Shown piece by piece: positions 44,752 to 62,669 of a stretch of 64,000 nt of DNA. The stretch's first letter is position 1, and every line of letters begins with the position of its first letter. The stretch spans positions 62,001 through 126,000 of the forward strand of contig NZ_JABJWC010000004.1 of assembly GCF_013155395.1 (NCBI RefSeq), read 5' to 3'. This DNA comes from Komagataeibacter melomenusus (GTDB lineage Bacteria > Pseudomonadota > Alphaproteobacteria > Acetobacterales > Acetobacteraceae). The translations under genes were made by a program, and so were the position numbers. A model generated the notes under the pieces. It saw only the letters and a list, made by a program, of their open reading frames with translations. It did not search any database and had not been told where the DNA came from.

Positions 44752-45585
44752 ATGAACGCGGGAACAACCCTTCTCCAGCGCGCAAGGGGGCAGTTCGGGC
44801 TGGAAGTCAGAGCCGATGGCTCCCGCACCCGCATGGCCGACCTGGTGCAGGCAGGCTGCTGCCGTCTGCTGTTTCCCCGCGTGCAGGGCAATGGGCTGGA
44901 AGCCGCCACGGTCAATATATCCGGCGGCATTGCGGCGGGGGATCGCATAACCGGGCGCCTGGCCTGTGGCCCCGGCACGGACCTGCTGGTCACATCGCAG
45001 GCGGCCGAGCGGATCTACCGCGCCCGCCCTGAAGATGGTCCGGCGGAGATGACGGTTGCCTGCCATATTAGCGCCGGAGCGCGGCTGGAATGGCTGCCGC
45101 ATGGCACGATCTTTTTTGATGGCAGCCGCCTGCGCCGCCACATGGTGGTGGAGATGGCGCAGTCTTCCACCTTCCTGTTTCTCGAGAGCCGGATATTTGG
45201 CCGCATTGGCGCAGGCGAGCAACTTGCCAGCCTGCATGTGCGCGACCGCCTGACCATAAGGCGCGCGGGCGACCTGCTGCTCGAAGACATGCTGCGGCTG
45301 GAAAGCACCGATGTCACCGCCCTGTTGGCCCGGCCTGCCGTGGCCGCAGGGCAGGGCGCAGTGGCGACACTGGTGCTGGCCAGCCCGCAGGCGATGGACC
45401 TGCTGGCCCCGGTGCGCACCCTGCTGGCGGCACCGCAATGCGCGGGCTTTGCCGCCTCGGCATGGAACGGCATGCTGGTGGTGCGCGGCGTGGGTGCCGG
45501 TGGCTGGGCGCTTGAGGGGGCGCTGCGGCATATCCTGCCGGCATTGCGGGCGGGGCGGCCCATGCCCTCTACATGGCGGTCATGA
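44752..45585 (+). CDS. ureD: Urease accessory protein UreD
   Basis: UreD (UreH) is the scaffold that docks UreF and UreG onto apo-urease during nickel insertion. The 277 residues contain family segments [36 protein letters not shown] and the [20 protein letters not shown] strand pair. ACGGAA lies just before the ATG. It is the first gene of ureD-A-B-C-E-F-G, 35 bases before ureA, which is a common order in alphaproteobacteria. A two-half-site motif upstream may be its operator. Confidence 0.94.
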
Positions 45586-45619: not shown

Positions 45620-45922
45620 ATGAAGCTGACACCAAGGGAAAAGGACAAGCTGCTCATTGCCATGGCCGCTATCGTGGCCCGCCGCAGGCTGGAGCGTGGC
45701 GTGCGGCTGAACTACCCCGAGGCCGTGGCCCTGATTACCGACCATGTGGTCGAAGGCGCGCGCGACGGGCTGAGTGTGGCCGAGCTTATGGCCAGTGGCG
45801 GCCATGTGCTGACCCGCGCGCAGGTCATGCCCGGCGTGGCCGAGATGATCCATGATGTTCAGGTCGAGGCGACCTTTCCCGATGGCACGAAACTGGTGAC
45901 AGTCCATGACCCGATACGCTGA
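45620..45922 (+). CDS. ureA: Urease subunit gamma
   Basis: Small structural subunit of urease, exactly 100 residues as usual, beginning [17 protein letters not shown] and containing [14 protein letters not shown] and the [19 protein letters not shown] end. AAGGAGG lies 11 bases upstream, the strongest ribosome site in the operon. It overlaps ureB by 17 bases. A longer frame from 45311 is antisense noise. Confidence 0.97.
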
Positions 45923-46250
45923 CCCCCTGCCCGAAGGCGCGGTGCCGGGCGAAATCCTGACCGATGAGGGCGAAATCACCCTCAACGCAGGCCAGCCCCG
46001 GCGCACCCTGCGCGTGACCAATACCGGCGACCGCCCCGTGCAGGTGGGCAGCCATTATCATTTTGCCGAGGTCAATCCGGCCTTGCATTTTGACCGCGCG
46101 CAGGCGCTGGGCTGGCGGCTTGATGTGCCATCGGGCGGGGCGGTGCGCTTCGAGCCGGGGCAGGAGCGTGACGTGACGCTGGTGCCGCTGCGCGGCCTGC
46201 GTCGCGTGATCGGCTTCCGGGGCGATGTAATGGGGAGTGTGGACCAATGA
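45906..46250 (+). CDS. ureB: Urease subunit beta
   Basis: Structural beta subunit of urease, 114 residues. The core [35 protein letters not shown] and GFRGDVMG segments are canonical. The N-terminus before PGEI is about ten residues longer than the usual MIPGEI start, and the ATG lies inside the end of ureA. The stop overlaps the ureC start by four bases, so A, B and C are translationally coupled for stoichiometric assembly. Confidence 0.96.
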
Positions 46251-47953
46251 CGCGCCTGACCCGGCATGATTACGCAGGCCAGTTCGGCCCCACCACCGGC
46301 GACCGCGTGCGGCTGGCCGATACCAACCTGCTTGTGGTGGTGGAAAAGGACTTCACCATCTACGGCGAGGAAGTGCGCTTTGGCGGCGGCAAGACCATCC
46401 GTGATGGCATGGGCCAGTCACAGGCCACGCGCGCGCAGGGAGCGGCGGATACCGTCATCACCAATGCGCTGATCATCGACCACTGGGGCATCGTCAAGGC
46501 GGATGTGGCGCTGCGTGACGGGCGGATTGCCGCCATTGGCAAGGCAGGCAACCCCGATATCCAGCCCGGCGTGGACATTGTCATCGGGCCGGGCACGGAA
46601 ATCATCGCGGGCGAGGGCAAGATCCTGACCGCGGGCGGCATTGACAGCCACATCCATTTCATCTGCCCCCAGCAGATCGAGGAGGCGCTGGCCTCGGGCA
46701 TCACCACCATGCTTGGCGGCGGCACCGGGCCTGCCACGGGCACGGCGGCCACCACCTGCACGCCGGGGCCGTGGCACCTTGCGCGCATGCTGCAGGCGGC
46801 TGATGCCTTTCCAGTCAACCTCGCCTTCGCGGGCAAGGGCAATGCCGCGTGCCCCGAGGCGCTGGAGGAAATGGTGCGCGCAGGCGCAAGCTGCCTGAAA
46901 CTGCATGAGGACTGGGGCTCGACCCCGGCCGCCATCGATTGCTGCCTCGGTGTTGCCGACCGGATGGACGTGCAGGTCATGATCCATACCGACACGCTTA
47001 ACGAAAGCGGCTTCGTGGAGGACACGATCGCAGCCTTTGAAGGCCGCACCATCCATGCCTTTCATACCGAGGGCGCGGGCGGCGGGCATGCGCCCGACAT
47101 CATCCGGGTGGCGGGGCTGCCCAACGTGCTGCCGTCCTCCACCAACCCCACGCGACCCTATACGCGCAACACGCTCGATGAGCATCTGGACATGCTCATG
47201 GTCTGCCATCACCTCGACCCCAGGGTGCCCGAGGACATTGCTTTTGCCGAAAGCCGCATCCGGCGCGAGACCATTGCGGCGGAGGACATTTTTCACGACA
47301 TGGGCGTGCTGTCCATGATGTCATCCGACAGCCAGGCCATGGGTCGGGTGGGCGAGGTGGCGCTGCGCACATGGCAGACGGCCCATAAAATGAAAGCGCA
47401 GCGCGGCCCCCTGCCCGGTGATGGCGCAGCCGACAACAATCGCGTCAGGCGCTACATCGCCAAATACACCATCAACCCCGCCATCGCCCATGGCCTGTCG
47501 CATGAGGTGGGGTCGATCGCGGTGGGCAAGCTGGCCGATCTGGTGTTGTGGGAGCCTGCGTTCTTTGGCGTCAAGCCCGATCTGGTCATCAAGGGCGGGG
47601 CCATTGCCTATGCCATGATGGGCGACCCCAACGCCTCCATCCCCACGCCGCAGCCGGTGCATGGCCGCATGATGTTTGGCGGCTATGGCGGGGCGCGGAC
47701 CCATACCAGCCTCACCTTCGTGTCAAAGGCAGCGTTGGAAGATGACATCGGCCGCAGGCTGGGCTTGTGCAAGAACCTTTCCGCCGTATCGGACACGCGC
47801 GGCGGCATTGGCAAGCGCAGCATGATCCATAACGATGCCATGCCGCATATCGAGGTAGACCCCGAAACCTATGAGGTGCGGGCCGATGGCGTGCTGCTGA
47901 CGTGCGAACCCGCCGATATCCTGCCCATGGCCCAGAGGTATTTCCTGTTCTGA
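46247..47953 (+). CDS. ureC: Urease subunit alpha (catalytic)
   Basis: Catalytic nickel subunit that hydrolyses urea to ammonia and carbamate, 568 residues. All active-site residues are present: H135 and H137 (DSHIHF), carbamylated lysine K218 (CLKLHEDWG), the histidines of MIHTDTLNE and [15 protein letters not shown], the flap histidine in MVCHHLDP, and the metal aspartate in SSDSQAMGR. The protein is therefore expected to be active. It overlaps ureB by four bases and ureE by one (TGATG). Confidence 0.98.
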
Positions 47954-48468
47954 TGACGCATGTAACCCAAATCCTGCCAGCGGGAAGCTGGCCCGTGGCC
48001 AGGGCCGCCGATGTGTTCGCCGCCGATTACGAAGGCCGCCACCGCAGGCGCATGATGCTCACCCTGCGCTCGGGCGCGCGCGTGCGGCTTGAACTTGAAC
48101 ACGCGCGCCTGCTGGCCGATGGCGATGGGCTGGTGCTTGATGATGGCCGCATCATCCGCGTGGAAGCCCTGCCTGAAGACCTGATGGAAGTCACCGCCCA
48201 TGACGCGCTGCACCTGCTGCGGCTGGCATGGCATCTGGGCAACCGACACCTGCCTGCCGCCATTGGGGCCGGGCGCATCCTTGTGCGCCATGACCATGTC
48301 ATTGCCGACATGATTACGGGGCTGGGCGGGCATGTGCGTCGTGTCAGAGCGGCCTTCGACCCCGAAAGCGGGGCCTATGCCGGACGCGGCGCGGCGCACG
48401 GCCATGAGCACCATCACGACCATGCCCATCCGCATGCGCATGGCGGCCACGCCCACGCGCATGACTGA
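47953..48468 (+). CDS. ureE: Urease accessory protein UreE (nickel metallochaperone)
   Basis: Delivers nickel to the UreDFG-urease complex. 171 residues: a peptide-binding N-terminal domain, a metal-binding domain with HLGNRHLPAAI and the conserved RHDHVIADM histidine, and a C-terminal tail in which 12 of the last 23 residues are histidine. Such tails store nickel. The ATG overlaps the last base of the ureC stop. A frame beginning at 47902 inside ureC is rejected. Confidence 0.95.
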   Translation: MTHVTQILPAGSWPVARAADVFAADYEGRHRRRMMLTLRSGARVRLELEHARLLADGDGLVLDDGRIIRVEALPEDLMEVTAHDALHLLRLAWHLGNRHLPAAIGAGRILVRHDHVIADMITGLGGHVRRVRAAFDPESGAYAGRGAAHGHEHHHDHAHPHAHGGHAHAHD

Positions 48469-49140
48469 ACCTGCGGGCCTGGCCGGGCACGACTTCCTGC
48501 GGCTGCTCTCATGGGTGTCGCCCGCTTTCCCCACGGGCGGCTATGCCTACAGCCACGGGCTGGAATGGGCGGTCGAGCGCGGTGACGTGCAGGATGTGGC
48601 CAGCCTGTGCGCATGGGTTGGCGCGTTGCTGCGCCATGGCAGTATTGGCAATGACCTGATCATTGCGCATGCGGCATGGCAGGCGGGGCATGATGAGGCC
48701 CGCCTGCGCGAGATTGCAAGCTTCGCCTGCGCATCCGCCTCCTCACGCGAGCGGTATGAGGAGACGGTGTATCAGGGCGAGGCCTTTTTGCGCGCGGCAG
48801 CAGTGTGGGATGTCGTGCCGCCCAGGGCAGCGCTGGCAGGCACGCGCTGGCCGCTGCCGGTGGTGCAGGGGCTGGTGTTCCGCCGTGGGGGCGTTGCTGC
48901 CCCGCAGGCCGTGCTCTCGGGCGGGTATGCGGCGGTGGCGGCCCTTGTATCGGCTGCCGTGCGGCTGGTGCCGCTGGGCCAGACCGACGGGCTGCACGCG
49001 CTGGCCCGGCTTGAATCCGTGCTGGCGCAGGCGGCAACGCAGGCTGCGCGCCAGACGCTGGACGATGTGGGCGGGGCGTGTTTTGCCGCCGACCTCGCCG
49101 CCATGCATCACGAAACCCAGGAAACGAGGTTGTTCAGGAC

Positions 49141-49144
<4 letters not shown>
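48461..49144 (+). CDS. ureF: Urease accessory protein UreF
   Basis: Part of the UreD-UreF-UreG maturation complex, acting on the UreG GTPase. 227 residues, all helical, with family segments [25 protein letters not shown] near the N-terminus, [16 protein letters not shown], and the C-terminal end [12 protein letters not shown]. The ATG lies eight bases inside the end of ureE, and the stop overlaps ureG (ATGA). A frame starting at 48332 within ureE is rejected. Confidence 0.95.
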
Positions 49145-49755
<611 letters not shown>

Positions 49756-49919: not shown

Positions 49920-49992
49920 TGCCGCCCCGATGGTGCAATTGCGTAATGTTTCCCTGTCGCCGGTCGGTGACCGCAGCCACAAGGGGATGTTC

Positions 49993-51189
49993 ATGATTGC
50001 GCTTGTGTCCCGGTTCAGGATGAGCCGGAAGAAGAAGCTGCTGCGTTGCGGCAGTATCCTGTCGGCCTGCGTGGCGCTTGGCGCCAGCATGCCCCATGCC
50101 CGCGCGGCCACCACGGTCAATTTTGGCAAGGACCAGTTCTTTACACTCGGCCTTGGCGTGCGCGCGCAGTATCTGAGCCATGATACCACCATGCCCGGCA
50201 ACAAGGATGCGGCCAGTGCCAGTGACCTGCGTATCTACATGGGCGCGCAGTTCCACAAATACGTCAAGTCCACGCTCAACCTCGAGCGCCTGCGCGATGG
50301 CAACTGGAACGTGCTCGATGGCGTGCTGCAGGTCGAGCGGTGGAAGGCGTTCAATATCTGGGGCGGGCGCATGCTCACGCCAAGCGACCGCTCGAACCTT
50401 GATGGTCCTTACTTTCTCAGCACCTATGCCTTTCCCATAGTGTCGCAGTATCCGGGTGCCTGGTCGGGGCGTGATGATGGCATCTCGGTATGGGGCAAAC
50501 TGCTCAAGGATCGCTTCCGCTACGTGGCGGGGGTCTATCGCGGGCATAACTGGGTGCGCGGCGGCTCGAATTATGGCGAGCACCCGCTCTTTGCAGCACG
50601 CATGGAATACAACTTCCTCGACCCCGAACCGTCGCCCGCCTATTACACGGCCAGTACCTATTACGGCAAGGCCGACATCCTGGCCATTGGCCTTGCGGGC
50701 CAGTACGAAACCGATGGCGTGGGCACGGCGCAGGACAAGGGTGACTACAAGGCGTGGAATGTTGATGGCCTGTTTGAAAAGCGCATCGGCGAGGGCGCGA
50801 AATACGGCGTCTATACGCTCGAGGGCGCATATTACCAGTATTATACCGGCGGCGTGAAGGACATCGCAGCCGGTTACGGGCAGCGCTCGGGTGATTACGG
50901 CAATGTGGGCGGGGTGAATGACGGCACGGCCTTCCTGGCCAGCACGGCCTACCTCATTCCCTACCGGCTGGGCTGGGGGCGCCTCCAGCCGCTGGTGCGC
51001 TACCAGCAGTTCTGCTTCAGGAAGGACATGTACGGCCCCGGCCACCCCAAGACCACCCAGCTCGATCTGGGCGGCAATTACGTCATGGATGGCCACAACC
51101 TGCGCTTTACGTTTGACTATGTGCGCTACAAGCCCATGGGCACGCGCGCGGTGGGGGCTTTTTTGCTGGGCATGCAGTTCCAGTACTGA
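49993..51189 (+). CDS. Outer-membrane porin, possibly for urea/short amides
   Basis: Exported beta-barrel protein, 398 residues, with a basic signal peptide (SRKKKLLRCGSILSACVALGA...ARAA) and repeated aromatic-glycine strands, ending in the outer-membrane C-terminal pattern (LLGMQFQY, last residue Y). Segments such as VERWKAFNIWGGRMLTPSDRSNLDGPY fit phosphate-selective-type/OprO-like porins. FmdC, a porin for short amides and urea linked to amide ABC transporters in methylotrophs, is a plausible relative. Its place between the urease and urt genes suggests it admits urea. ATG at 49993 has AAGGGG six bases upstream; a longer frame from 49930 adds an unlikely N-terminus. Confidence 0.8.
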   Translation: MIALVSRFRMSRKKKLLRCGSILSACVALGASMPHARAATTVNFGKDQFFTLGLGVRAQYLSHDTTMPGNKDAASASDLRIYMGAQFHKYVKSTLNLERLRDGNWNVLDGVLQVERWKAFNIWGGRMLTPSDRSNLDGPYFLSTYAFPIVSQYPGAWSGRDDGISVWGKLLKDRFRYVAGVYRGHNWVRGGSNYGEHPLFAARMEYNFLDPEPSPAYYTASTYYGKADILAIGLAGQYETDGVGTAQDKGDYKAWNVDGLFEKRIGEGAKYGVYTLEGAYYQYYTGGVKDIAAGYGQRSGDYGNVGGVNDGTAFLASTAYLIPYRLGWGRLQPLVRYQQFCFRKDMYGPGHPKTTQLDLGGNYVMDGHNLRFTFDYVRYKPMGTRAVGAFLLGMQFQY

Positions 51190-51779: not shown

Positions 51780-52673
51780 CTAGCGCTCCTGTAGCAGGCG
51801 CGATGCGGTAGCAGCGGCGGCGGCCCGCGTGCTCAGCCCGGTCTTGTTGTAGATCTGCTCGATATGCTTGTCGATCGTGCGCGGGCTGACCTGCAAGATA
51901 TCGGCAATGTCGCGGCTGGTCTTGCCGCGTGATATCCACAGCAGCACCTCCGCCTCACGCGCGCTCAGGCCCAGCCTGTCTTGCAATATGCGCTGGGGGA
52001 CAAGCGGCTGCCGACTGATGCGCAGCAGCAGTTCATCCGGCCCGCTCACGCCCACAAGGCTCAGCACCAGTTCGTTTTCACCCACGTTATGGCGCAGGAG
52101 CACGCCGCCGGGTGCTGGCAGGGGCGTGGGCAACGCGATGGCCGCGCCCGCATCGCCCGCGCCTGACAGTTCGCGTAGCACAAGCCCGGCCTGCGGCGTG
52201 GCCCACAGTACATCGCCCGCATGGCTGGTGGCCAGCAGGAAGCGGCCTGCATGGTCAAGCGCCCCGTGGGCTGCACGGATGCGTGCGGCGGATTCCATGC
52301 GCACGCCAATGCGGGCCATGACTTCCTCCAGCCGCAGGGGCTTGGTCACGTAATCGGCGGCACCCGCCTCAAAGGCACGGATTACGTGCTCGGTCTCGGT
52401 CAGGCCGGTCATGAATATGATGGGCACAAGGCTCAGGCGCGGGTCATCATGCAGGGCCGCGCAGACTTCCCACCCGTTCATGCCGGGCATGAGGGCATCG
52501 ACCATGATCAGGTCGGGCACGGTGCGCGCGACGACTGCAAGTGCTGCCATGCCGGACTGCGCCAGCAGCACCGTATAGCCGCCATCGGTCAGTTTCTCGT
52601 CCATCAGGCCCAGGACGGCCGGGTCATCATCAATGACAAGGACGGATTTGCGGGATGGATCGGGCACGGTCAT
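51780..52673 (-). CDS. LuxR/FixJ-type response regulator, partner of the urea-locus kinase
   Basis: Two-component DNA-binding regulator of 297 residues. The N-terminal receiver has the acidic pair in VLVIDDD, phosphoacceptor D59 in LIMVDALMPGMNG, and the conserved lysine in YVTKPLRLEE. A linker of about 100 residues follows, longer than in typical NarL proteins (about 210 in total), and then the LuxR helix-turn-helix LSAREAEVLLWISRGKTSRDIADIL...VSPRTIDKHIEQIY. The ATG overlaps the kinase stop by four bases. It probably activates the urease, porin and urt promoters through the paired TRCGYA motif; that link is inferred. Confidence 0.9.
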   Translation of the reverse strand: MTVPDPSRKSVLVIDDDPAVLGLMDEKLTDGGYTVLLAQSGMAALAVVARTVPDLIMVDALMPGMNGWEVCAALHDDPRLSLVPIIFMTGLTETEHVIRAFEAGAADYVTKPLRLEEVMARIGVRMESAARIRAAHGALDHAGRFLLATSHAGDVLWATPQAGLVLRELSGAGDAGAAIALPTPLPAPGGVLLRHNVGENELVLSLVGVSGPDELLLRISRQPLVPQRILQDRLGLSAREAEVLLWISRGKTSRDIADILQVSPRTIDKHIEQIYNKTGLSTRAAAAATASRLLQER

Positions 52674-55600
52674 GGCGTGGGTCGCTCCAGGTGGTGGCGC
52701 AGGGCTTCAAGCTGGTAGGAGGCGGCAAGGGCCAGCAGCGGTTCGATCGCATCGCCCAGGGCCGGATGCCGGTCGCGCAGGGTGGCCAGGTGGGCGCGCA
52801 GGTGGCGCAGGTTGCCGCCATCAAGCACGGCAAGCAGGGCCACGCGCTCCGCCTCGGGCAGGGTGGCGGGTGCGCCCGGGGGCGCGAGGGGCGCGGTGTC
52901 CGGCTCGGGGATGGGGAAGATCCATTCAAGGTCGAGCATCTGGCCCATCTTGGTGATTAGAACCGACAGGTTCACCGGCTTGCCCAGCACGGGGCAGTCC
53001 TCAAGGGAGGGAACATGGCGGTTTGCGCTTTCCACCAGGTTGCCGGTCAGGAACATGATCGGCACATGGGCGTGGGGCGAGCGACGGATGCGCAGGGCAA
53101 GGTCGCGCCCGTCCATGCCGGGCATGGACAGGTCGAGCAGCAGCAGGTCGGGCTGCACCAGCGGCAGGCGGTCGAGGCATTCCGCCCCGCTTTCCGCGCC
53201 TTCAAAGGCAAAGCCGCAGCGCTCGAGGATCTCGCGCATGATCAGGCGGTGCTCGGCATTGTCATCGACCACCAGCACCGTGCGGCGCGGCCCTTCATAC
53301 CCGGTGGGGAAGGCGGGCAGCCGGGGCGGCAGTTCCACCTGCCGGTCAGACAGCATGAGCCGCACCCTGAAGCGCGACCCCTTGCCCGGCGTGCTGGTAA
53401 AGGTCAGTTCGCCGCCCAGGATCTCGGTCAGCAGGCGGGTGATGGTCAGCCCCAGCCCGGTGCCCGGCACGCCCGCGCTGGTGCTCCCGCGTTCAAAAGG
53501 CTCGAAAATGCGGGCATGGTCTTCCTCCGTAATGCCGGGGCCGGTGTCTTCTATGATGAATTCCGCAATCTGCCCCTGCCACCTGGCCGAGAACGTGACC
53601 GTGCCCCGCCGGGTGAACTTGACCGCGTTTGACAGCAGGTTGAGCAGGATCTGGCGCAGGCGGTGCTCGTCGCAGGTCACGACGGCGGGCAGGTAGCCGG
53701 GCCGCCATGCCAGTTCCAGCCCGCGTGCCTGCGCCTGCGGGCGGATCATCTGGGCTACGGATTCCACAAAGGCGGGCAGGGCGATGGTATCGGCATGCAG
53801 TTCGATCCGCCCGGCCTCGATGCGCGAGATGTCCAGCAGGCCGGACAGGATGCTGGTGATGTGCTCGCCGCTTTCGCGCATGGTGTCCAGCGCCTGGTGG
53901 CGCTCGGGCGGCAGGCGCGTATCGTGTTGCAGCAACTGGATATAGCCCATGATGGCGTTGAGCGGCGAGCGGATCTCGTGGCTGATGCCGCTGATGTAGC
54001 GGGTCTTGGCCAGGCTTGCCGCCTCCGCCTTTTCGCGCGCCAGCTTCAGCGCGTGGTCGGTGCGGCGGCGGGCGCGGATCTCGTTCATGAGCTGGCGGGT
54101 CTGGTGCAGCGTCTCGCGCGTGGCGGTGCGCCGCCCCTCCTGCGCCATGACCAGCAGCCACGCGCCCACCGTGCCGGCCAGAAAGACTGGCACCAGCGTG
54201 CCGCGCCACGCATGGCCCGTGGTCCAGCCCAGCAGTCCCATGCCCAGCGTCATGCCCGCCAGCATGAGCGTAAAGCGCCCCGCAGGCGCCACAAGCCAGT
54301 GGCGCAGGCGCGGTGGCAGGGCGCGCAGCGGGGCGGCAAGCTGGCTGCCCATGCGGGTCGAGACCGGCTTGCAGCGGTCGCGGCAGCGCCCGTCAAGCGA
54401 GCAGCACAGCGAGCAGATCGTGCCGCCATAGGCCGGGCAGGGCGCCATGTCCCGCGCCTCGAAGGTATGTTCGCAGATCACGCAGGTCATGGCGGGCCGG
54501 GCGTTCCAGCCCGCGGGCAGGGGGCGGGCCAGATAGGTGCGCCCCCCGGTCAGCCACGCCAGCACCGGTGCGGTGGCAAAGGCGACCACAAGTGTCAGGA
54601 AGGGCGCATAGGCCGCGGCCATTGGGCCCAGATAGCCCGCAAAGGCCGCAACGCCCGTGGCTGCGGCAATCCCCCACGCCCCCAGCCCCACGATGTTGAA
54701 GTCCGGCAGCAGCGCGCGCTTGAACTCGACAAAGGGCGGGCTGAGGCCAAGCGGCTTGCACAGCGCCACATCCCCCAGTATTGCGCCAATCCACGCACAG
54801 GCCAGCACGCCGTACAGCGTGATGCCGGTCTGGATGGTGCTGACCAGGCCTGCCTCCATCAGCAACAGCGCGATCATGACATTGAAGATGACATAGAACA
54901 CCCGCCCCGGATGGGTGTGGGTCAGGCGCGAGAAGAAGTTCGACCACGCGAGTGACCCGGCATAGGCGTTGGTGATGTTGACCTTGACCTGCGCCAGCGC
55001 CACCAGCGCCACCGTCAGCGCGGTCGCCACCGGGGCGGGGGTGAAACTGCCCCAGGCAAAACGGTACATCACCCCCGGCTGCACCGCCTGCAGCGGGGAA
55101 AGGCCCGCACGCAGCACCACCCATGCCAGGAACGAGCCCGCCAGCAGCTTGAAGGCATCAAGCACCACCCAGCCCGGTCCGCCCAGCACCAGCGCCGCCC
55201 ACCACTGCCGCCGGTTGTGCCGCGTGGGTTCGGGCAGGAAGCGCAGGAAGTCGATCTGTTCGGCGCTCTGGCACACCAGCACGATCATGAGCGAGGCGCC
55301 GGTGCCCACGGCAAGGGGGTCGATGCGCCCCGCAGGCGCGTAAGGCGCGCTGGAATGCATCCACTGTCCCAGCAGGTCGGGGTGCAGCCCCGCCATGACC
55401 GCAAGGGGAATGAGATTGAGGGCCAGCCAGACCGGCTGTGTCGCGATCTGGAAACGGGCGATGAACGTGATGCCCCACGTTACCAGCGGAATGATGAGGG
55501 CCGCGCATAGCAGGTACGCCAGCCACAGCTTCATGCCCAGCAGCCCGTGCAGCGTGCCCGCCAGGATCGCCGCCTCGAGCCCGAAGAAGATGAAGGTGAA

Positions 55601-55987
55601 AATGGCATAGAGCAGCGAGGTGATGGTTGAGCCGATATAACCAAACCCGGTGCCGCGCGTGAGCAGGTCGATATCCAGCCCCGCGCGCGCCGCCGTTGCG
55701 CAGAGCGGCAGGGTAATGGCGAAGATGACAGCCGTGACCAGCGCTATGGCCACGGCCGTATTGGCAAAGCCGAAGGCGAGCGTAAGCGTGCCGCCCATGG
55801 CCTCGAGGGCGAGGAACGAGATGGAGCCCAGCGCCGTGCGCGCTGCCCGCATGGGCGTGGCCATGCGGGCGGCGCGCGCGGTAAAGCGCAGGGCGTAGTC
55901 CTCGAATGTCTGGTCGGCGGCCCAGCGGCTGTAGGCCCGGCGGGGGCGCACGATGCGCAGGCGGCTTGTCGGGTGCGGCAAGATCAC
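52670..55987 (-). CDS. Hybrid histidine kinase fused to an NCS1/permease-like transporter domain
   Basis: 1105-residue membrane sensor. Residues about 25-495 form a 12-helix domain resembling nucleobase:cation symporter-1 / cytosine-allantoin permeases (ISFLALEAMGGTLTLAFGF, FFGLEAAILAG, VKVNITNAYAGSLAWSNFFSRL). Residues ~500-540 are a cysteine cluster (CVIC...CSLCC...CRDRC). Two more helices lie near 570-625. HisKA with phosphoacceptor H672 in SGISHEIRSPLN, an HATPase with NLLSNAVKF and GTGLGLTI, a receiver with VVDDN and D952 (LLLDLSMPG), and a helical tail follow. Start is a GTG with a weak GAAAG site; the N-terminal YSRWAADQTFEDYALRFT is conserved-looking, so it is kept. It is divergent from urtA. 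Confidence 0.88.
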   Translation of the reverse strand: MILPHPTSRLRIVRPRRAYSRWAADQTFEDYALRFTARAARMATPMRAARTALGSISFLALEAMGGTLTLAFGFANTAVAIALVTAVIFAITLPLCATAARAGLDIDLLTRGTGFGYIGSTITSLLYAIFTFIFFGLEAAILAGTLHGLLGMKLWLAYLLCAALIIPLVTWGITFIARFQIATQPVWLALNLIPLAVMAGLHPDLLGQWMHSSAPYAPAGRIDPLAVGTGASLMIVLVCQSAEQIDFLRFLPEPTRHNRRQWWAALVLGGPGWVVLDAFKLLAGSFLAWVVLRAGLSPLQAVQPGVMYRFAWGSFTPAPVATALTVALVALAQVKVNITNAYAGSLAWSNFFSRLTHTHPGRVFYVIFNVMIALLLMEAGLVSTIQTGITLYGVLACAWIGAILGDVALCKPLGLSPPFVEFKRALLPDFNIVGLGAWGIAAATGVAAFAGYLGPMAAAYAPFLTLVVAFATAPVLAWLTGGRTYLARPLPAGWNARPAMTCVICEHTFEARDMAPCPAYGGTICSLCCSLDGRCRDRCKPVSTRMGSQLAAPLRALPPRLRHWLVAPAGRFTLMLAGMTLGMGLLGWTTGHAWRGTLVPVFLAGTVGAWLLVMAQEGRRTATRETLHQTRQLMNEIRARRRTDHALKLAREKAEAASLAKTRYISGISHEIRSPLNAIMGYIQLLQHDTRLPPERHQALDTMRESGEHITSILSGLLDISRIEAGRIELHADTIALPAFVESVAQMIRPQAQARGLELAWRPGYLPAVVTCDEHRLRQILLNLLSNAVKFTRRGTVTFSARWQGQIAEFIIEDTGPGITEEDHARIFEPFERGSTSAGVPGTGLGLTITRLLTEILGGELTFTSTPGKGSRFRVRLMLSDRQVELPPRLPAFPTGYEGPRRTVLVVDDNAEHRLIMREILERCGFAFEGAESGAECLDRLPLVQPDLLLLDLSMPGMDGRDLALRIRRSPHAHVPIMFLTGNLVESANRHVPSLEDCPVLGKPVNLSVLITKMGQMLDLEWIFPIPEPDTAPLAPPGAPATLPEAERVALLAVLDGGNLRHLRAHLATLRDRHPALGDAIEPLLALAASYQLEALRHHLERPTP

Positions 55988-56044: not shown

Positions 56045-56066
56045 CCATACGCAGGAATGCGTATGG
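56045..56066. promoter_or_regulatory. 22-base palindrome between the sensor kinase and urtA
   Basis: CCATACGCA-GGAA-TGCGTATGG: perfect nine-base arms. It sits 55 bases before the urtA start and 58 bases before the divergent kinase start, so it could control both. Its core (TACGCA-N4-TGCGTA) is the best copy of the motif found before ureD and the porin gene. Confidence 0.65.
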
Positions 56067-56120
56067 GAAGTGCTTTTATGTACGCCGACAATGCAGCCAG
56101 CAGCAAAAGGACCGTTCATC

Positions 56121-57461
56121 ATGCCCGTCACACTGCCTCACCTTTCCCGTCGCGCGTTCGGACGTCTCGCCCTTGCCTCCTCGGCGGCTGTTGTGGGGGG
56201 CATGTGGCGCGCGGCGCCGGCGCGGGCGGCAGCGCCCACGGGCGAGCCGATCAGGGTTGGCATCCTGCATTCTCTGTCCGGCACGATGGCCATCAGCGAG
56301 ACCACGCTCAAGGATGCCATGCTGATGCTCATTGCTGAGCAGAACCGCAAGGGCGGCCTGCTTGGCCGCCCGCTTGAGGCGGTGGTGGTGGACCCTGCCT
56401 CGAACTGGCCGCTCTTTGCCGAGAAGGCACGCCAGCTCCTGTCGGTGGACAAGGCATCGGCCGTGTTTGGCTGCTGGACCAGCGTCTCACGCAAGTCGGT
56501 GCTGCCGGTGTTCGAGGAACTCAACGGCATCCTGTTCTATCCCGTGCAGTATGAAGGCCAGGAGTGCAGCCGCAACATCTTCTATACCGGTGCCGCGCCC
56601 AACCAGCAGGCCATACCGGCGGTGGACTACCTGCTGAGCGAGGATGGCGGCGGGGCGAAGCGTTTCGCGCTGGTGGGCACGGATTACGTCTATCCGCGCA
56701 CCACCAACCAGATCCTGGTCAATTACCTCAAGGCCAAGGGCATCGCGGAAGCCGACATCATGGTCAATTACACGCCGTTCGGGCAGTCGGACTGGCAAAC
56801 CATTGTCTCGCAGATCAAGGCTTTCGGCTCGGCAGGCAAGAAGACCGCCGTGGTCTCGACCATCAATGGCGATGCCAACGTGCCGTTCTACAAGGAACTG
56901 GGCAATCAGGGCATCTCCGCCACCGACATCCCGGTCATGGCCTTCAGCGTGGGGGAAGAGGAACTGGCCGGCATGGATACCGCCCCGCTGGTGGGCCAGC
57001 TTGCCGCATGGAACTATTTCGAAAGTATCGACACCCCGGCCAATACCGCCTTCATCAAGCAGTGGCATGAATTCACCAAAAACCCCAGGCGCACCACCAA
57101 TGACCCGATGGAGGCGCATTACATCGGCTTCAACATGTGGGTGCAGGCGGTGACCAAAGCGGGTACCACCGATCATGACAAGGTGATTGATGCCATGATC
57201 GGCATCCGCCAGCCCAACCTGACCGGCGGCGTGGCCGAGATGCTGCCCGACCACCACCTGACCAAACCGGTCTATATTGGCGAGATACAGGATGACGGGC
57301 AGTTCTCGGTGGTGTGGAAGACCCCGGCCCTCGTGCCCGGGCAGGCCTGGTCGCCGTGGGTGCCGGAAACGAAAGACCTGATCGGTGACTGGCGCAAGCC
57401 CATTGCCTGCGGCAACTACAACACCGCCACCAAGACCTGCCTCGGGCACAGGCATGCATAG
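56121..57461 (+). CDS. urtA: Urea ABC transporter substrate-binding protein UrtA
   Basis: Periplasmic urea-binding protein of the branched-chain-amino-acid/amide type, 446 residues. The start is a twin-arginine-like signal (SRRAFGRLALASS, R10-R11) ending near PARAAA. The mature protein opens IRVGILHSLSGTMAISE, with WTSVSRKSVLPVFE and FYPVQYEGQECSRNIFYTGA, which are diagnostic of UrtA/AmiC-like urea and amide binders. ATG at 56121 has AAAGGA nine bases upstream; the longer frame to 56070 is rejected. First gene of urtABCDE. Confidence 0.96.
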   Translation: MPVTLPHLSRRAFGRLALASSAAVVGGMWRAAPARAAAPTGEPIRVGILHSLSGTMAISETTLKDAMLMLIAEQNRKGGLLGRPLEAVVVDPASNWPLFAEKARQLLSVDKASAVFGCWTSVSRKSVLPVFEELNGILFYPVQYEGQECSRNIFYTGAAPNQQAIPAVDYLLSEDGGGAKRFALVGTDYVYPRTTNQILVNYLKAKGIAEADIMVNYTPFGQSDWQTIVSQIKAFGSAGKKTAVVSTINGDANVPFYKELGNQGISATDIPVMAFSVGEEELAGMDTAPLVGQLAAWNYFESIDTPANTAFIKQWHEFTKNPRRTTNDPMEAHYIGFNMWVQAVTKAGTTDHDKVIDAMIGIRQPNLTGGVAEMLPDHHLTKPVYIGEIQDDGQFSVVWKTPALVPGQAWSPWVPETKDLIGDWRKPIACGNYNTATKTCLGHRHA

Positions 57462-59058
57462 GGTCCGTACCACCTGCCTGCTGGCGGCACTGTGGCTTGG
57501 GGCCATGCTGCTGCCGGGCCACGGCGCGCGGGCGGATGCCTTCGCTGATCTGGCCAGCCCGCAGCTCGGGGCGGTGACGGCGGCGATTTCCACCCTTGCG
57601 GCATCGCCTGACCCGCAGGCCGGGGCCGCGTTGCAGGCGCTGGGCGAGCGGAGCCTGTTCGCAGCCCCTGATGGCAATGTTTATATCCGTCACGGTGAAA
57701 ACTACGTGGAGGCCCGCACGGGCCAGCCCGCGGCATCCGTGCCGGAAGGTATGAAGCCCATCCGCCTGAACAACCGCATCCGCGCGGCACTTGCGGGCGT
57801 GCAGGCGGGTAGGGATCTGCTGGCCTCCCAGCCCGCAACGCGGCTCAGGGCCGCCGATGCGCTTTATGCCCGCCATGACCCTGCCATGCTGCCGGCCGTC
57901 GAGCACGCCCTCGCGGTGGAGAAGGATGCCGCCGTGCGCACCCGGCTGACGGAGGTGCGGGCTGCGACCATTCTCGGCCAGCCGCCCGCCCCCGATGCGC
58001 TCGCTTCCCGGCTTGAGGCCGTGCGCGCGCTGGGGGGCGTGGGGGGCGCGCAGGCGCGTGGCATCCTTGCCGGTGTTGCCGCATCCGATGCGGAAGCGCC
58101 CGCCGTGCGCCATGAGGCGCAGCAGGCCGTATCACGCATCGACTGGCACCTGCGCGCCTGGGGCGTTGCGCAGAATGCCTTTTATGGCCTGAGCTACGGC
58201 TCGGTGCTGCTGCTGGCCGCCACCGGGCTTGCCATCACCTTTGGCGTGATGGGCGTGATCAACATGGCCCATGGCGAGATGATGATGATCGGCGCCTATG
58301 TGACGTGGATGGTGCAGCAGGCCATCCGCGCGACTGTGCCCGCGCTGGAGCCGGTGGCCATCCTTGTGGCCATTCCGGTGGCGTTCGGGGTGTGCGGGGC
58401 GCTTGGCATCGTGATCGAGCGCGGACTGATCCGCTTCCTGTATGGCCGCCCGCTGGAAACGCTGCTGGCCACATGGGGGCTTTCGCTCATCTTGCAGCAG
58501 GCGGTGCGTTCCATCTTCGGGCCGACCAACATTGCGGTGCAGACGCCGGGCTGGCTTTCAGGCGCGGTTGCGGTGGGCGGCATGGACATTACGCTCAACC
58601 GGCTGGCCATCCTTGTCTTCGCAGGGCTGGTGCTCGGCGGGCTGATGCTGGTGCTGCGCCATACGCCGCTGGGGCTGCAGATGCGCGCCGTTACCCAGAA
58701 CCGCCGCATGGCGGCCCTGATGGGCATCCGCACGCCGCGGGTCGATGCGCTGGCCTTCGGGCTTGGCGCGGGCCTTGCGGGGCTTGCGGGCGTTGCGGTC
58801 AGCCAGATTGACAATGTCAGCCCTAATCTGGGCCAATCCTATATCATCGACAGTTTCATGGTGGTGGTGTTTGGCGGGGTCGGCAACCTGTGGGGTACGC
58901 TGGCGGCGGCCCTTGCGCTGGGCATGGGCGGCAAGGTGCTGGAGCCGACCATTGGCGCGGTCTCGGCCAAGATCGCCATTCTCGTGCTGGTCATCCTCTA
59001 CATCCAGCGCCATCCGCGCGGCATGTTTCCCGTGCGCGGGCGGGGAGTTGAATCATGA
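57454..59058 (+). CDS. urtB: Urea ABC transporter permease UrtB
   Basis: Inner-membrane permease, 534 residues. Residues 1-25 are a signal-like helix. Residues about 30-230 are a soluble helical region with HEAT-like pairs (PAVEHALAVEKDAAVRTRL, LEAVRALGGVGG), the extra domain typical of UrtB and absent from LivH. The remainder is a LivH-type permease with GVINMAHGEMMMIGAY and a C-terminal NLWGTLAAALALG segment. The ATG overlaps the last eight bases of urtA; the stop overlaps urtC by four. Confidence 0.95.
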   Translation: MHRVRTTCLLAALWLGAMLLPGHGARADAFADLASPQLGAVTAAISTLAASPDPQAGAALQALGERSLFAAPDGNVYIRHGENYVEARTGQPAASVPEGMKPIRLNNRIRAALAGVQAGRDLLASQPATRLRAADALYARHDPAMLPAVEHALAVEKDAAVRTRLTEVRAATILGQPPAPDALASRLEAVRALGGVGGAQARGILAGVAASDAEAPAVRHEAQQAVSRIDWHLRAWGVAQNAFYGLSYGSVLLLAATGLAITFGVMGVINMAHGEMMMIGAYVTWMVQQAIRATVPALEPVAILVAIPVAFGVCGALGIVIERGLIRFLYGRPLETLLATWGLSLILQQAVRSIFGPTNIAVQTPGWLSGAVAVGGMDITLNRLAILVFAGLVLGGLMLVLRHTPLGLQMRAVTQNRRMAALMGIRTPRVDALAFGLGAGLAGLAGVAVSQIDNVSPNLGQSYIIDSFMVVVFGGVGNLWGTLAAALALGMGGKVLEPTIGAVSAKIAILVLVILYIQRHPRGMFPVRGRGVES

Positions 59059-60194
59059 ACCCGTTTTCAACCCATGCCCCGCGTTCCCTGCGCGGCGTGA
59101 TCTGGATGGCGGTGGCCGTGGTGGTGGCGGCTTCGTGCCTGGCCGTGGCCAGCCTGCTGCCCGAGGGCAACCTGCTGCATGCCTCCGCCTTCGTGGTGTC
59201 GCTTGCGGGTAAATACCTGTCCTATGCCATGCTGGCGCTGGCGGTGGATCTGGTGTGGGGTTTTGCGGGCATCCTTACGCTGGGGCATGCCGCGTTCTTT
59301 GCGCTGGGGGGGTATGCCATGGGCATGTACCTCATGCGCGAGATCGGGGCGCGGGGCGTTTATGGCAATGCCGACCTGCCGGATTTCATGATCTTCCTCT
59401 CATGGAAGAGCCTGCCGTGGTACTGGTGGGGCTCGGAGCATTTCATATGGGCCGCCGTGCTGGTCGTGGCGGTGCCGGGGCTGCTGGCGGGCGTGTTTGG
59501 CTGGCTGGCTTTCCGCTCGCGCGTGTCGGGGGTGTACCTGTCCATCATCACGCAGGCGCTGACCTACGCGCTCATGCTGGCGTTCTTCCAGAACGGGCTG
59601 GGCTTTGGCGGCAATAACGGCCTGACCGACTTCAAGGACATCCTTGGCGCCGACCTGCATGCACCGCATACGCGCGCGGTGCTGCTGGTGGTGACCGGAG
59701 TGCTGCTGGCCGCAAGCCTGCTGGCCGCGCGTTTTGTGGTGGGTGGCCGTTTTGGCAACCTGCTGGTGGCCGTGCGCGATGCCGAAAGCCGCACCCGCTT
59801 CCTGGGTTACCGCCCCGAGCAGGCCAAGCTGCTGGTATGGGTGTTCTCGGCCATGATCGCGGGGGTGGGTGGTGCGCTGTATGTAACGCAGGTTGGCATC
59901 ATCAACCCCGGTGAGTTCGCGCCCGCCAATTCCATCGAATCCGTGATCTGGGTGGCGGTGGGCGGTCGGGGCACGCTGTGCGGGGCCGTGCTGGGGGCCA
60001 TACTGGTCAATATGGGCAAGACGCTGTTCACCGCCTGGCTGCCGGAGTTCTGGCTGTACGGGCTGGGGCTGCTGTTCATCTGCACCACGCTGTTCCTGCC
60101 CAACGGGCTGATGGGGCTGTGGCGGCATGCCCGCAAACCGCCGCCCGAGGAAGTGACCCCCGAAGTGGCGGATACGCAGGGAGATGAGGCATGA
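59055..60194 (+). CDS. urtC: Urea ABC transporter permease UrtC
   Basis: Second urea permease, LivM type, 379 residues with about ten helices. Family marks are VDLVWGFAGILTLGHAAFFALGGYAMGMYLM, RVSGVYLSIITQALTYA, the coupling loop AVRDAESRTRFLGYRPEQAKLLVW, and VAVGGRGTLCGAVLGA. Starts on ATGA overlapping urtB and ends on ATGA overlapping urtD, so urtB, C and D are tightly coupled. Confidence 0.96.
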   Translation: MNPFSTHAPRSLRGVIWMAVAVVVAASCLAVASLLPEGNLLHASAFVVSLAGKYLSYAMLALAVDLVWGFAGILTLGHAAFFALGGYAMGMYLMREIGARGVYGNADLPDFMIFLSWKSLPWYWWGSEHFIWAAVLVVAVPGLLAGVFGWLAFRSRVSGVYLSIITQALTYALMLAFFQNGLGFGGNNGLTDFKDILGADLHAPHTRAVLLVVTGVLLAASLLAARFVVGGRFGNLLVAVRDAESRTRFLGYRPEQAKLLVWVFSAMIAGVGGALYVTQVGIINPGEFAPANSIESVIWVAVGGRGTLCGAVLGAILVNMGKTLFTAWLPEFWLYGLGLLFICTTLFLPNGLMGLWRHARKPPPEEVTPEVADTQGDEA

Positions 60195-60931
60195 CCGCTA
60201 GCCTGCTGCTCGACATGCGCGATGTCAGCGTGACGTTTGACGGCTTTCGCGCCATCAACAGCCTCAGCCTTGCGCTGCGCCCGGGCGAGATGCGTGCCAT
60301 AGTCGGCCCCAATGGTGCGGGCAAGACAACGATGATGGACATCATCACCGGCAAGACCCGGCCCGATACCGGCACCGTGCGCTTTCAGGGCCATGACCTG
60401 ACCCGGCTCGATGAACCGGCCATCGCCCGGCTGGGCATTGGCCGCAAGTTCCAAAAGCCCACCGTGTTCGAGGCGCTGAGCGTAACCGAGAACCTGCTGC
60501 TGTCGCTCAAGGGCGTGCGTTCGCCCTTTGCCGTGCTCATGGCGCGCATGAACGCGCAGGAGCGTGAACGCATTGACCACCTCCTGCGCCTGACCCGGCT
60601 GGAAGCCGTGGCCGACCAGCCCGCGGGTGGCATGAGCCACGGCCAGAAGCAGTGGCTCGAGATCGGCATGCTCATGGGCCAGGAGCCTGAACTGCTTTTG
60701 GTGGATGAACCCGTGGCGGGCATGACCGATGCCGAGACCATGGCCACCGCCGACCTGCTGCGCGAGATCAACCGCACGCGCAGCGTGGTGGTGGTGGAAC
60801 ATGACATGGATTTCGTGCGCGCGCTGGGCGTGGGCGTGACGGTGCTGCATGAAGGCTCGGTGCTGGCCGAAGGCACGCTGGATGCGGTCAGCGCCGACCC
60901 GCGCGTGATCGAGGTCTATCTTGGGCGCTGA
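60191..60931 (+). CDS. urtD: Urea ABC transporter ATPase UrtD
   Basis: First ATPase of the urea importer (LivG type), 246 residues. Walker A is GPNGAGKTT at 39-47. The signature region is MSHGQKQWLEIG (LivG/UrtD variant of LSGGQ), and Walker B is LLLVDEPVAGM. RKFQKPTVFEALSVTENLLL is typical of the amide/urea group. It overlaps urtC and is 35 bases before urtE. Confidence 0.96.
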   Translation: MTASLLLDMRDVSVTFDGFRAINSLSLALRPGEMRAIVGPNGAGKTTMMDIITGKTRPDTGTVRFQGHDLTRLDEPAIARLGIGRKFQKPTVFEALSVTENLLLSLKGVRSPFAVLMARMNAQERERIDHLLRLTRLEAVADQPAGGMSHGQKQWLEIGMLMGQEPELLLVDEPVAGMTDAETMATADLLREINRTRSVVVVEHDMDFVRALGVGVTVLHEGSVLAEGTLDAVSADPRVIEVYLGR

Positions 60932-60966: not shown

Positions 60967-61662
60967 ATGCTCGAGGTTAACGACGTGCACCTGCATTATG
61001 GCGCGGCGATTGCGCTGCGTGGCGTCTCGCTTGCAGCAGGGGCGGGGGCCGTGACCTGCGTGCTCGGCCGCAATGGCGTGGGCAAGACCAGCCTGATCCG
61101 CGCCATAACCGGCATGCATGCCACAAGTGCTGGCACGATCATGTGGGAGGGCGAGGACATTACCCGGCTCGCCGCCTACGATCGTGCCCGCCGGGGCATT
61201 GCCACCGTGCCGCAGGGGCGCGACATCTTTCCGCTGCTCAGCGTGCGCGAAAATCTTGAAACCGGCTTCGGCCTGCTGCCACGCGGGCAGCGCCGGGTGC
61301 CGGACGAGATATTCGACCTGTTTCCCGTGCTGGCAAAAATGCTCGACCGGCGCGGCGGTGACCTGTCTGGCGGGCAGCAGCAGCAGCTTGCCATTGCGCG
61401 CGCGCTGGTCATCCGCCCGCGCCTGCTGGTGCTCGATGAACCGACCGAGGGCATCCAGCCCAGCATCATCAAGGATATCGGCACCATCATCGGCATGCTG
61501 CGCGACAGGGGCGACATGGCCATCGTGCTGGTGGAGCAGTATTTCGACTTTGCCTATGAACTGGCTGACACGATTGCCGTGCTCGACCGGGGCAGGGTGG
61601 TGCTGGCAGGGCAGGCCCGCGACCTCGTGGCGGAGGATGTGCGCGCCTACATCACCATCTGA
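60967..61662 (+). CDS. urtE: Urea ABC transporter ATPase UrtE
   Basis: Second ATPase (LivF type), 231 residues. Walker A is GRNGVGKTS at 34-42, the signature is LSGGQQQQLAIARAL, Walker B is LLVLDEPTEGIQPS, and VPQGRDIFPLLSV precedes them. AGGGGAGG lies nine bases before the ATG. It completes the urt transporter; a nickel permease gene follows after 23 bases. Confidence 0.96.
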   Translation: MLEVNDVHLHYGAAIALRGVSLAAGAGAVTCVLGRNGVGKTSLIRAITGMHATSAGTIMWEGEDITRLAAYDRARRGIATVPQGRDIFPLLSVRENLETGFGLLPRGQRRVPDEIFDLFPVLAKMLDRRGGDLSGGQQQQLAIARALVIRPRLLVLDEPTEGIQPSIIKDIGTIIGMLRDRGDMAIVLVEQYFDFAYELADTIAVLDRGRVVLAGQARDLVAEDVRAYITI

Positions 61663-61685: not shown

Positions 61686-62669
61686 ATGTCCAGCGATGCC
61701 CGGCGTGGAACAGGCTCCGTCATGTGCGCCCTGCTGCTGGCCAATCTGGCGGCATGGGCGTGGGCTGCAACCATGCTGGGGGCCGCGCCCGCTCTGCTGG
61801 GGGCAGCGGTGCTGGCGTGGACATTTGGCCTGCGCCACGGGCTTGACGCCGATCATATCGTGGCGATTGACGTGGTGACCCGCAGGCTCATGCAGGCGGG
61901 GCGCGCGCCTGGACTGGTGGGGCTGTTCTTCTCGCTTGGTCATTCCACCGTCGTCCTTCTCGCCACCCTTGCGCTGGTCATGCTGCCGGTGCCGTTCTGG
62001 CTGGAACGGTGGCATGTGGCGGGTGGAAGCTTCGGCATGCTGGTCCCGGCAGCCTTCATGCTGGTTGCGGTCATGGCCAATGCCCGCATGGCCCTGTGGC
62101 AGTGGCGGGCGCTGCGCCAGCCTGCCCCGTTGCCGCCCGCGCCCTCCACGGGGTTCGTGTCCGGGCGGGTGGGGCGGTGGATCGGCCGGAGCTGGCAGAT
62201 GTACCCGCTCGGCTTCCTGTTCGGGCTGGGGTTTGACACGGCCAGTGAAATCGGCCTGCTGGGCATGGCGGCGGTCCACGCCCACCATGGGCTGGGCCTT
62301 GCCGGGGTCATGGCGTTTCCGCTGCTTTTTACAGCAGGCATGGCGCTGGTTGATACGCTCGATACCCTGCTCATGTGCCGTGCCTATGGCTGGGGCATGC
62401 GCTCGGGCCGCAGGGCCGTGGCGTATGATCTGGGCATCAGCCTTGTCTCGCTTGTGGCTGCGGCAGGCATTGGCGCGATTGAACTGGGGCAGAAGGTTGG
62501 GGATGCAGGCGCCAGTGTGCTCACGCGGGGCCTGATGGTGGCGGGCGACCATTTTGCCGCGCTGGGCGCGGGCATCGTGCTGGTTTTTCTGGCCCTGTGG
62601 GGTGGGGCTGTCGTGATCAGCCGCAGGCAGGCCAACCCTGTCACCCCGACCCGGGATAAGGCTGGATGA
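61686..62669 (+). CDS. NiCoT-family nickel/cobalt transporter
   Basis: Inner-membrane nickel permease (HoxN/NixA type), 327 residues with about eight helices. The helix II signature is RHGLDADHI at 50-58 (family RHA-DADHI; G replaces A), followed by LFFSLGHSTVVLL, LGFDTASEIGLL and LLFTAGMALVDTLD, the other NiCoT motifs. It is encoded directly after urtE rather than beside urease. The urt transcript would therefore bring in both urea and the nickel urease needs. GAAAGAG precedes the ATG. Confidence 0.92.
   Translation: MSSDARRGTGSVMCALLLANLAAWAWAATMLGAAPALLGAAVLAWTFGLRHGLDADHIVAIDVVTRRLMQAGRAPGLVGLFFSLGHSTVVLLATLALVMLPVPFWLERWHVAGGSFGMLVPAAFMLVAVMANARMALWQWRALRQPAPLPPAPSTGFVSGRVGRWIGRSWQMYPLGFLFGLGFDTASEIGLLGMAAVHAHHGLGLAGVMAFPLLFTAGMALVDTLDTLLMCRAYGWGMRSGRRAVAYDLGISLVSLVAAAGIGAIELGQKVGDAGASVLTRGLMVAGDHFAALGAGIVLVFLALWGGAVVISRRQANPVTPTRDKAG

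Follow-up and report, generated by a model that had tools for sequence, protein, structure and literature searches.

A hybrid histidine kinase with an NCS1 permease fold is a probable sensor of urea and short-chain amides

A hybrid sensor histidine kinase and the LuxR-type response regulator encoded next to it probably constitute a two-component amide-sensing system, with an NCS1 permease fold as the input domain and urea as the ligand at the locus analyzed here. The locus lies in a 64,000-nucleotide stretch of a Komagataeibacter melomenusus contig (hereafter the window), and its features are collected in Table 1. This reading draws on the computed fold and architecture of the kinase, on its conservation, on its genomic partnership with urea and formamide genes and on a palindrome shared among loci. 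Since a fused kinase, a regulator and a shared putative operator are found beside such genes, the system is probably a sensor for urea or formamide.

Table 1. Features of the kinase locus in the window, in order of position
Feature	Position	Strand	Remarks
ureD	44752-45585		before ureA; assigned by position and synteny
ureA, ureB, ureC, ureE, ureF, ureG	45620-49755	+	ureA, ureB, ureC and ureG pass NCBIfam cut-offs; UreE under cut-off; ureF by position and synteny
Porin, ExtI type	49930-51189	+	107 bits against a cut-off of 150
Response regulator, receiver and LuxR-type HTH	51780-52673	-	start overlaps kinase stop (52670-52673)
Hybrid sensor histidine kinase	52670-55987	-	1105 aa; GTG start; ORF intact
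Response_reg receiver domain	52952-53278	-	residues 904-1012; Pfam E 9.5e-18
HATPase_c	53351-53671	-	residues 773-879; Pfam E 1.5e-28
HisKA	53810-54010	-	residues 660-726; Pfam E 5e-18; phospho-accepting His670 by H-box
Two predicted helices	54011-54286	-	residues ~568-590 and ~598-659; AlphaFold model; second continues into kinase
Cys-rich module	54368-54484	-	residues 502-540; C502, C505, C517, C525, C528, C529, C535, C539
NCS1-fold permease domain	54542-55909	-	residues ~27-482 by CodB alignment; Mhp1 alignments reach ~513-515
Palindrome ATACGCAGGAATGCGTAT	56047-56064	.	proposed operator; 59 bases from kinase start codon, between divergent kinase and urtA
urtA ORF	56070-57461	+	TIGR03407, 554 bits; in-frame starts 56070, 56091, 56121
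urtB ORF	57385-59058	+	passes NCBIfam cut-off
urtC	59055-60194	+	passes NCBIfam cut-off
urtD	60191-60931	+	passes NCBIfam cut-off
urtE	60967-61662	+	passes NCBIfam cut-off
Nickel/cobalt transporter, HoxN/NixA type	61686-62669	+	under family cut-off; directly after urtE

A Pfam search at E<=1 named HisKA, HATPase_c and Response_reg, and only these, in the window kinase, leaving the residues before 660 without a name. The E values bore out the original prediction, made from the sequence alone, of a hybrid kinase with these three domains. Their key residues are present (Asp952 of the receiver is taken as the phospho-acceptor), and together with the adjacent regulator gene they identify a hybrid kinase with a LuxR-type regulator. 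A regulator homologue is encoded on the kinase strand at 126 of 133 placed loci. No Hpt domain was seen in the window kinase, whose C-terminal tail is without a conserved His (best column, 42/125 in the full-length homologue alignment). According to the AlphaFold model, the two helices preceding the kinase may form an extra membrane hairpin and a signalling helix. The LuxR-type regulator, these helices, an eight-Cys module and the palindrome all go beyond what the original prediction covered. Two homologues, G035:C184 and G391:C81, each carry one in-frame stop (TGA and TAG, respectively) in the sensor part, reflecting either gene decay or sequencing errors.

The original prediction had assigned the N-terminal half to an NCS1-like permease. 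A plain Pfam search at E<=1 detected no transporter family, Transp_cyt_pur included, in the window kinase or in any of 10 aligned N-terminal parts, and a sequence search of solved structures with the N-terminal part gave no transporter match. Profile and fold comparisons resolved this lack of matches. The N-terminal part was modelled from an alignment of 57 rows (the window and 56 relatives from the genome collection), with a mean pLDDT of 86 and a pTM of 0.86, and Foldseek ranks 1 to 5 were all Mhp1 or CodB. With VIA-align, CodB gave a Z score of 36.0 (rmsd 3.1 A over 397 residues) and the Mhp1 chains 30.2, 28.0 and 27.9. The first non-NCS1 chain reached 24.9, and the others at or below this value were LeuT-fold families, including DUR3 urea transporters and SLC5 types, the latter at 24.1 or less, well under NCS1. 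SLC5 belongs to the same superfamily, and NCS1 fits the model better. A profile-profile comparison against four NCS1 proteins, one of which (L094) is itself a kinase-profile match, gave a probability of 98.2 and an E value of 5.7e-14 over 327 columns. Two stand-alone permeases were matched by both the kinase profile and Transp_cyt_pur: L195 (E 9e-46 and 3.6e-9, respectively) and L094 (E 7e-11 and 2.8e-9). By sequence comparison, these two bridge the gap between the kinase N-terminal domain and the NCS1 family. The modelled structure therefore confirmed an NCS1 permease fold for the N-terminal half, although the simple family search misses NCS1.

The substrate- and sodium-site residues of CodB and Mhp1, as given in the available text of PMC9379551, were transferred to the kinase by sequence alignment, not structurally: Mhp1 entered by way of its alignment with an NCS1 protein encoded in the window's genome, and a joint alignment then positioned the kinase. 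Trp117 of Mhp1 (Trp108 of CodB) aligns with F134, Gln121 of Mhp1 with E138, Asn318 of Mhp1 with N340, and the bundle-side stacking aromatic (Trp220, or Phe204 in CodB) with L237. The aromatic pair that stacks on the substrate in NCS1 proteins is accordingly not retained in this alignment, its place being taken by F134 (or Leu) and L237. One of the two hydroxyls of the CodB/Mhp1 sodium site (Na2) aligns with K335, and the TM8 register is ambiguous by one residue, so that Lys335 stands opposite Ser312 or Thr313 of Mhp1. We compared these positions between 75 formamide-linked kinases and 40 urea-linked rows, of which 39 are kinases and one is the kinase-less L089. T131, E138, Q240, E243, Q244, D246, N337, N340 and Y342 were invariant in both groups, and position 335 was Lys or Arg in 115/115 rows. 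Position 134 was Phe in 75/75 formamide-linked rows, and in the urea-linked rows it was Phe in 20 and Leu in 20, the Leu falling in two clades. No position diagnostic for urea versus formamide was found among the 115 labelled rows; the site residues being identical in both groups, sequence alone cannot distinguish the two ligands. The change from Phe204 in CodB to Leu237 fits a small, nonaromatic ligand. With one aromatic partner lost and an acidic residue gained, the aligned site would be better suited to a small amide than to a base.

Between the permease and the kinase, where SLC5 kinases have STAC, lies a Cys-rich module, followed by the two helices and HisKA. All eight of its Cys residues are invariant in 125/125 full-length homologues, near-copies counted. 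The module may bind a metal, for which zinc would be our guess. No Pfam family matched it at E<=1 in more than 1 of 40 members, and comparison with the sequences of solved structures returned only weak C2H2 and RING matches. Folded alone, the module had a pLDDT of 75; the best Foldseek match was a RING finger (E 0.089), and the remainder were weak matches of the RING/FYVE type, which do not establish a new fold.

Homologues were searched for at several taxonomic depths. Matches were found in 17/60 genomes comprising the window's genome and its relatives (two of the 17 being the window's own genome and G031, which is kinase-less), in 36/387 genomes of the class (4 with weak matches only) and in 70/397 sampled genomes of the phylum (65 at E <1e-200, the window's genome included). 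No relatives of the kinase were found in the viral contigs searched. A named collection yielded at least 586 confirmed stretches, the best 80 of which were used. Together with 37/40 regions of a first fetch, 15/18 of a later fetch and the window, they make up the 133 loci. L089, a kinase-less permease, is counted among these, as are near-copies or single contigs under two names (L069/L155 and L086/L103); L092 (a kinase fragment only) and L093, L094, L195, L211 and L212 (no fused kinase) were left out. Among the best 80 of at least 586 and the other rows placed in the tree, all placeable rows were from Pseudomonadota (L154 was unplaced), and the closest relatives of the window kinase among the rows sampled were from Komagataeibacter and Acetobacter.

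In the window, the predicted position of the kinase, divergent from urtABCDE and near the urease genes, was upheld by the NCBIfam matches of urtA to urtE, ureA, ureB, ureC and ureG, and ureD and ureF gave no NCBIfam match at 1e-10. The urtA start at 56121 is preferred because a signal peptide follows it. The HoxN/NixA-like gene fits nickel supply to urease. The anticipated co-occurrence of the architecture with urea or amide genes was found in the survey as well: urt, ure or fmd genes (fmdDEF-like, FmdA) lie within ~10 kb at 121/133 loci (120/132 without L089), compared with 1/20 control stretches, which were hand-chosen at round coordinates in kinase-carrying genomes. After clustering at 85% identity, 75/81 clusters have such partners. 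Within ~10 kb, the formamide contexts comprised fmdDEF-like genes with formamidase (62 loci), fmdDEF-like genes (11) and fmdA (2), and the urea contexts urt with ure (22), urt (16) and ure (4); 3 loci had both systems, 1 had ure with fmdA and 12 had none. Of these 12, L120, L130 and L165 end at a contig edge, L155 and L069 are apparently the same contig, and L206 has UrtA ~11 kb away. NCBIfam identified one formamidase as FmdA (766 bits), and this protein served as the reference for assigning the other loci by similarity; the substrate-binding protein of the tested cluster also passes the UrtA model. Formamide genes alone accompany the kinase at 75/133 loci, so the ligand class would be urea and short-chain amides, not urea alone. 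The proposal of an NCS1 sensor for urea or an amide is thus supported by context, and a dedication to urea is not.

The two contexts are interleaved in the phylogeny. On a FastTree tree of 129 rows, with urt and ure-only loci merged under one urea label, the urea/formamide label changes 6 times, 5 times without L089 and 8 times when ure-only is kept apart from urt. The long rows L087, L088, L089 and L090 are uncertain, and 5 switches remain without these four. Three genomes carry one urea-context and one formamide-context copy each (L200/L201, L202/L203 and L204/L205). Other arrangements were also seen. L075 and its near-copy L076 have urea carboxylase and allophanate hydrolase beside the kinase, L199 and L205 have urease without urt within 10 kb, and in L197 and L198 the kinases are shorter, with frames of 894 and 899 aa, and adjoin an AmiS/UreI channel and FmdA. 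In the latter two (L197:6345-10155 and L198:6397-10346), the shorter permease-kinase is followed by a separate gene beginning like a response regulator. At L067:4630-6663, a 677-aa protein adjoining the regulator gene resembles methyl-accepting chemotaxis proteins by eye only and had no NCBIfam match at 1e-30.

Stand-alone permeases related to the kinase also occur. The one at L089:9118-10878 in G031 (L089 is the same as L020) is a 587-aa frame that lacks a kinase, contains half of the Cys module (C..C, CSLC) and lies divergent from ureABC. A search of G031 for UrtA, FmdA and AmiS/UreI found none, and given the divergent ureABC this permease is possibly an NCS1-like urea importer. A nearer NCS1 permease that likewise stands alone, at L195:8948-12167 (G568), has as its neighbour a gene encoding two carbon-nitrogen hydrolase domains, a hint that members of the wider clade transport amides. 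Kinase and transporter also show a pattern of joint occurrence: in 18 other genomes of the window's genus, the same 10 have both the kinase and UrtA and the other 8 have neither. In the wider family, G023, G024, G025, G028, G032 and G033 have UrtA above the cut-off and no kinase was found in them; urt therefore does not need the kinase.

The palindrome between the kinase and urtA has the consensus TACGY-N6-RCGTA. Its dyad, TACG-N8-CGTA, occurs in 42/82 nonredundant kinase-upstream regions (from 121), and shuffles give ~0.3. Within 400 bp, the dyad was found at 51/66 formamide-linked, 22/40 urea-linked, 4/4 double and 4/11 other loci; it is absent from 40/121 upstream regions, several urt-linked clades among them. 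The consensus occurs 106 times in the 133 loci (2.6 Mb) and its reversed control 10 times. Because the palindrome was discovered before kinase genes, an independent test comes only from displaced sites and kinase-less loci. There are 23 displaced sites, lying before urtA/fmdD (8), fmdA (8), the porin (3; homologues of the window's porin in L062, L064 and L073), allophanate hydrolase (2) and elsewhere (2); at 85% identity, the loci concerned fall into 15 clusters, and 13 of these are supporting. The family has 21 urtA loci that pass the cut-off. The palindrome is present at 13/15 of those in genomes with the kinase, the exceptions being G020 and G035, and at 0/6 of those in genomes without a kinase match. 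The exact 18-mer has 13 copies in 15 chosen genomes, 10 before the kinase, 1 before allophanate hydrolase in a kinase locus and 2 elsewhere; 5 of these genomes are without it. A second exact palindrome lies on another contig of the window's genome, at G000:C44:53461-53478. A one-mismatch palindrome at 50813-50830, inside the porin ORF, was taken as chance. The palindrome is a probable operator of the regulator.

We propose the following mechanism. The ligand, which would be urea in the window kinase and formamide or another short-chain amide in many relatives, would occupy the central site, flanked by the bundle and hash helices. Binding would close the permease, and the Cys module and the final pair of helices would convey this closure to the kinase. 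Phosphate would then reach the LuxR-type regulator, perhaps through the receiver domain, which may gate or pass it. The regulator would bind TACGY-N6-RCGTA in the region from which the kinase and urt genes diverge, and would activate its own locus together with uptake and degradation genes. Activation rather than repression is assumed here by analogy with CrbS/R, as described in the available text of PMC5715377.

A different possibility is that the permease domain both transports urea or amides and signals, a reading which we regard as rather unlikely although it deserves consideration. The potential urea importer in G031 would be consistent with it, and the SLC5 domain of CbrA is reported to take up histidine (available text of PMC13022988). 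Dedicated ABC importers, in contrast, usually adjoin the kinase. The Lys or Arg conserved at one sodium-site hydroxyl position also argues against transport, although some LeuT-fold transporters function with Lys at that position. In Ks-Amt5, moreover, the fused transporter can bind without translocating, according to the accessible parts of PMC5764959.

Two further alternatives, both improbable in our estimation, place the signal elsewhere. In the first, the kinase watches flux through the Urt/Fmd ABC transporter and the permease fold is a mere docking scaffold. The ABC genes are indeed closely linked to the kinase, but L197, L198, L199 and L205 have no called urt or fmdDEF genes within 10 kb (UrtA or UrtA-like genes are present elsewhere in G501, G571, G587 and G717, which qualifies this absence), and a scaffold would not account readily for the invariant residues of the central site. 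In the second, the kinase responds to nitrogen status or ammonium rather than to an amide, in line with the repression of fmd genes by ammonia in Methylophilus methylotrophus (PMC10781810, available text); separate urea- and formamide-locus copies in one genome are hard to explain by such a common signal. It is very improbable that the kinase adjoins the urt operon by coincidence and has merely been inherited along with it: closely related loci inflate the counts, but the repeated switches on the tree, the displaced palindromes and the contrast between urtA loci with and without the kinase speak for a regulatory link.

To our knowledge, the transporter families fused to histidine kinases are SLC5 and Amt. 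The SLC5 kinases CbrA, CrbS and RpuS likewise join a LeuT-fold transporter to a kinase, which is a hybrid in CrbS, and CrbS has a LuxR-type regulator as its partner, with an inverted-repeat motif preceding acetate-utilization genes, a symporter among them (PMC5715377, PMC9100948 and PMC13022988, as far as their available text goes). They differ from the present kinase in having SLC5, where NCS1 fits better here, a STAC linker at the position of the eight-Cys module, and carbon substrates or histidine as ligands, and the CrbR motif differs from the palindrome described here. Ks-Amt5 is also an uptake transporter recruited as the nitrogen-source sensor of a histidine kinase, but it has the Amt fold and, at 679 aa, carries the kinase directly after the transporter, with no PAS, HAMP or STAC linker in the description available (PMC5764959); it is the example of a transporter-fused kinase in the accessible portion of a review (PMC8534201). 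CodB and Mhp1 share the fold and the TM3/TM6/TM8 landmarks. Unlike them, our protein is fused to a kinase, has partly lost the aromatic sandwich, has Lys at Na2 and lacks a plain Pfam match. The NCS1 domain, the Cys linker, the predicted ligand class and the candidate operator set this family apart from the known transporter-fused kinases.

Our full-text literature search, which among the matches listed covered titles and abstracts and left subscription papers mostly outside, returned no NCS1-fused kinase or function of this system, and none was found in the available parts of PMC11633122, PMC11109136 and PMC8399564. In Ectopseudomonas guguanensis G3, a hybrid kinase and a LuxR regulator lie beside a second urtABCDE, with fmdA as the next locus tag (PMC13296017); judging from the locus tags, this pair is probably the same system. 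It is described there as a generic hybrid kinase, and the text available names no sensor domain, operator or function. A urt-type transporter adjoining formamidase has been proposed as a formamide importer (PMC13209695, in part). According to the accessible text of a review, both formamide and urea induce the fmd uptake cluster of M. methylotrophus, and no sensor for this induction is named in that text (PMC10781810).

It is plausible, although we hold this more tentatively than the sensing role itself, that the family represents a new, transporter-derived class of receptors. An NCS1 fold that served cyclic bases would have been adapted to the smallest amides: its site would contain the acidic E138 together with Asn340, and Lys335 would stand in for part of the sodium site. 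Paired sensors would distinguish urea from formamide within one cell, and a new metal-binding module would couple the fold to the kinase, doing the job of STAC. With the present family, NCS1 would join SLC5 and Amt as a kinase-fused transporter family. The question of amide sensing becomes directly testable with a widespread candidate sensor, the regulator beside it, a probable operator and a set of predicted site residues, and the natural urea/formamide sensor pairs may provide material for amide biosensors.
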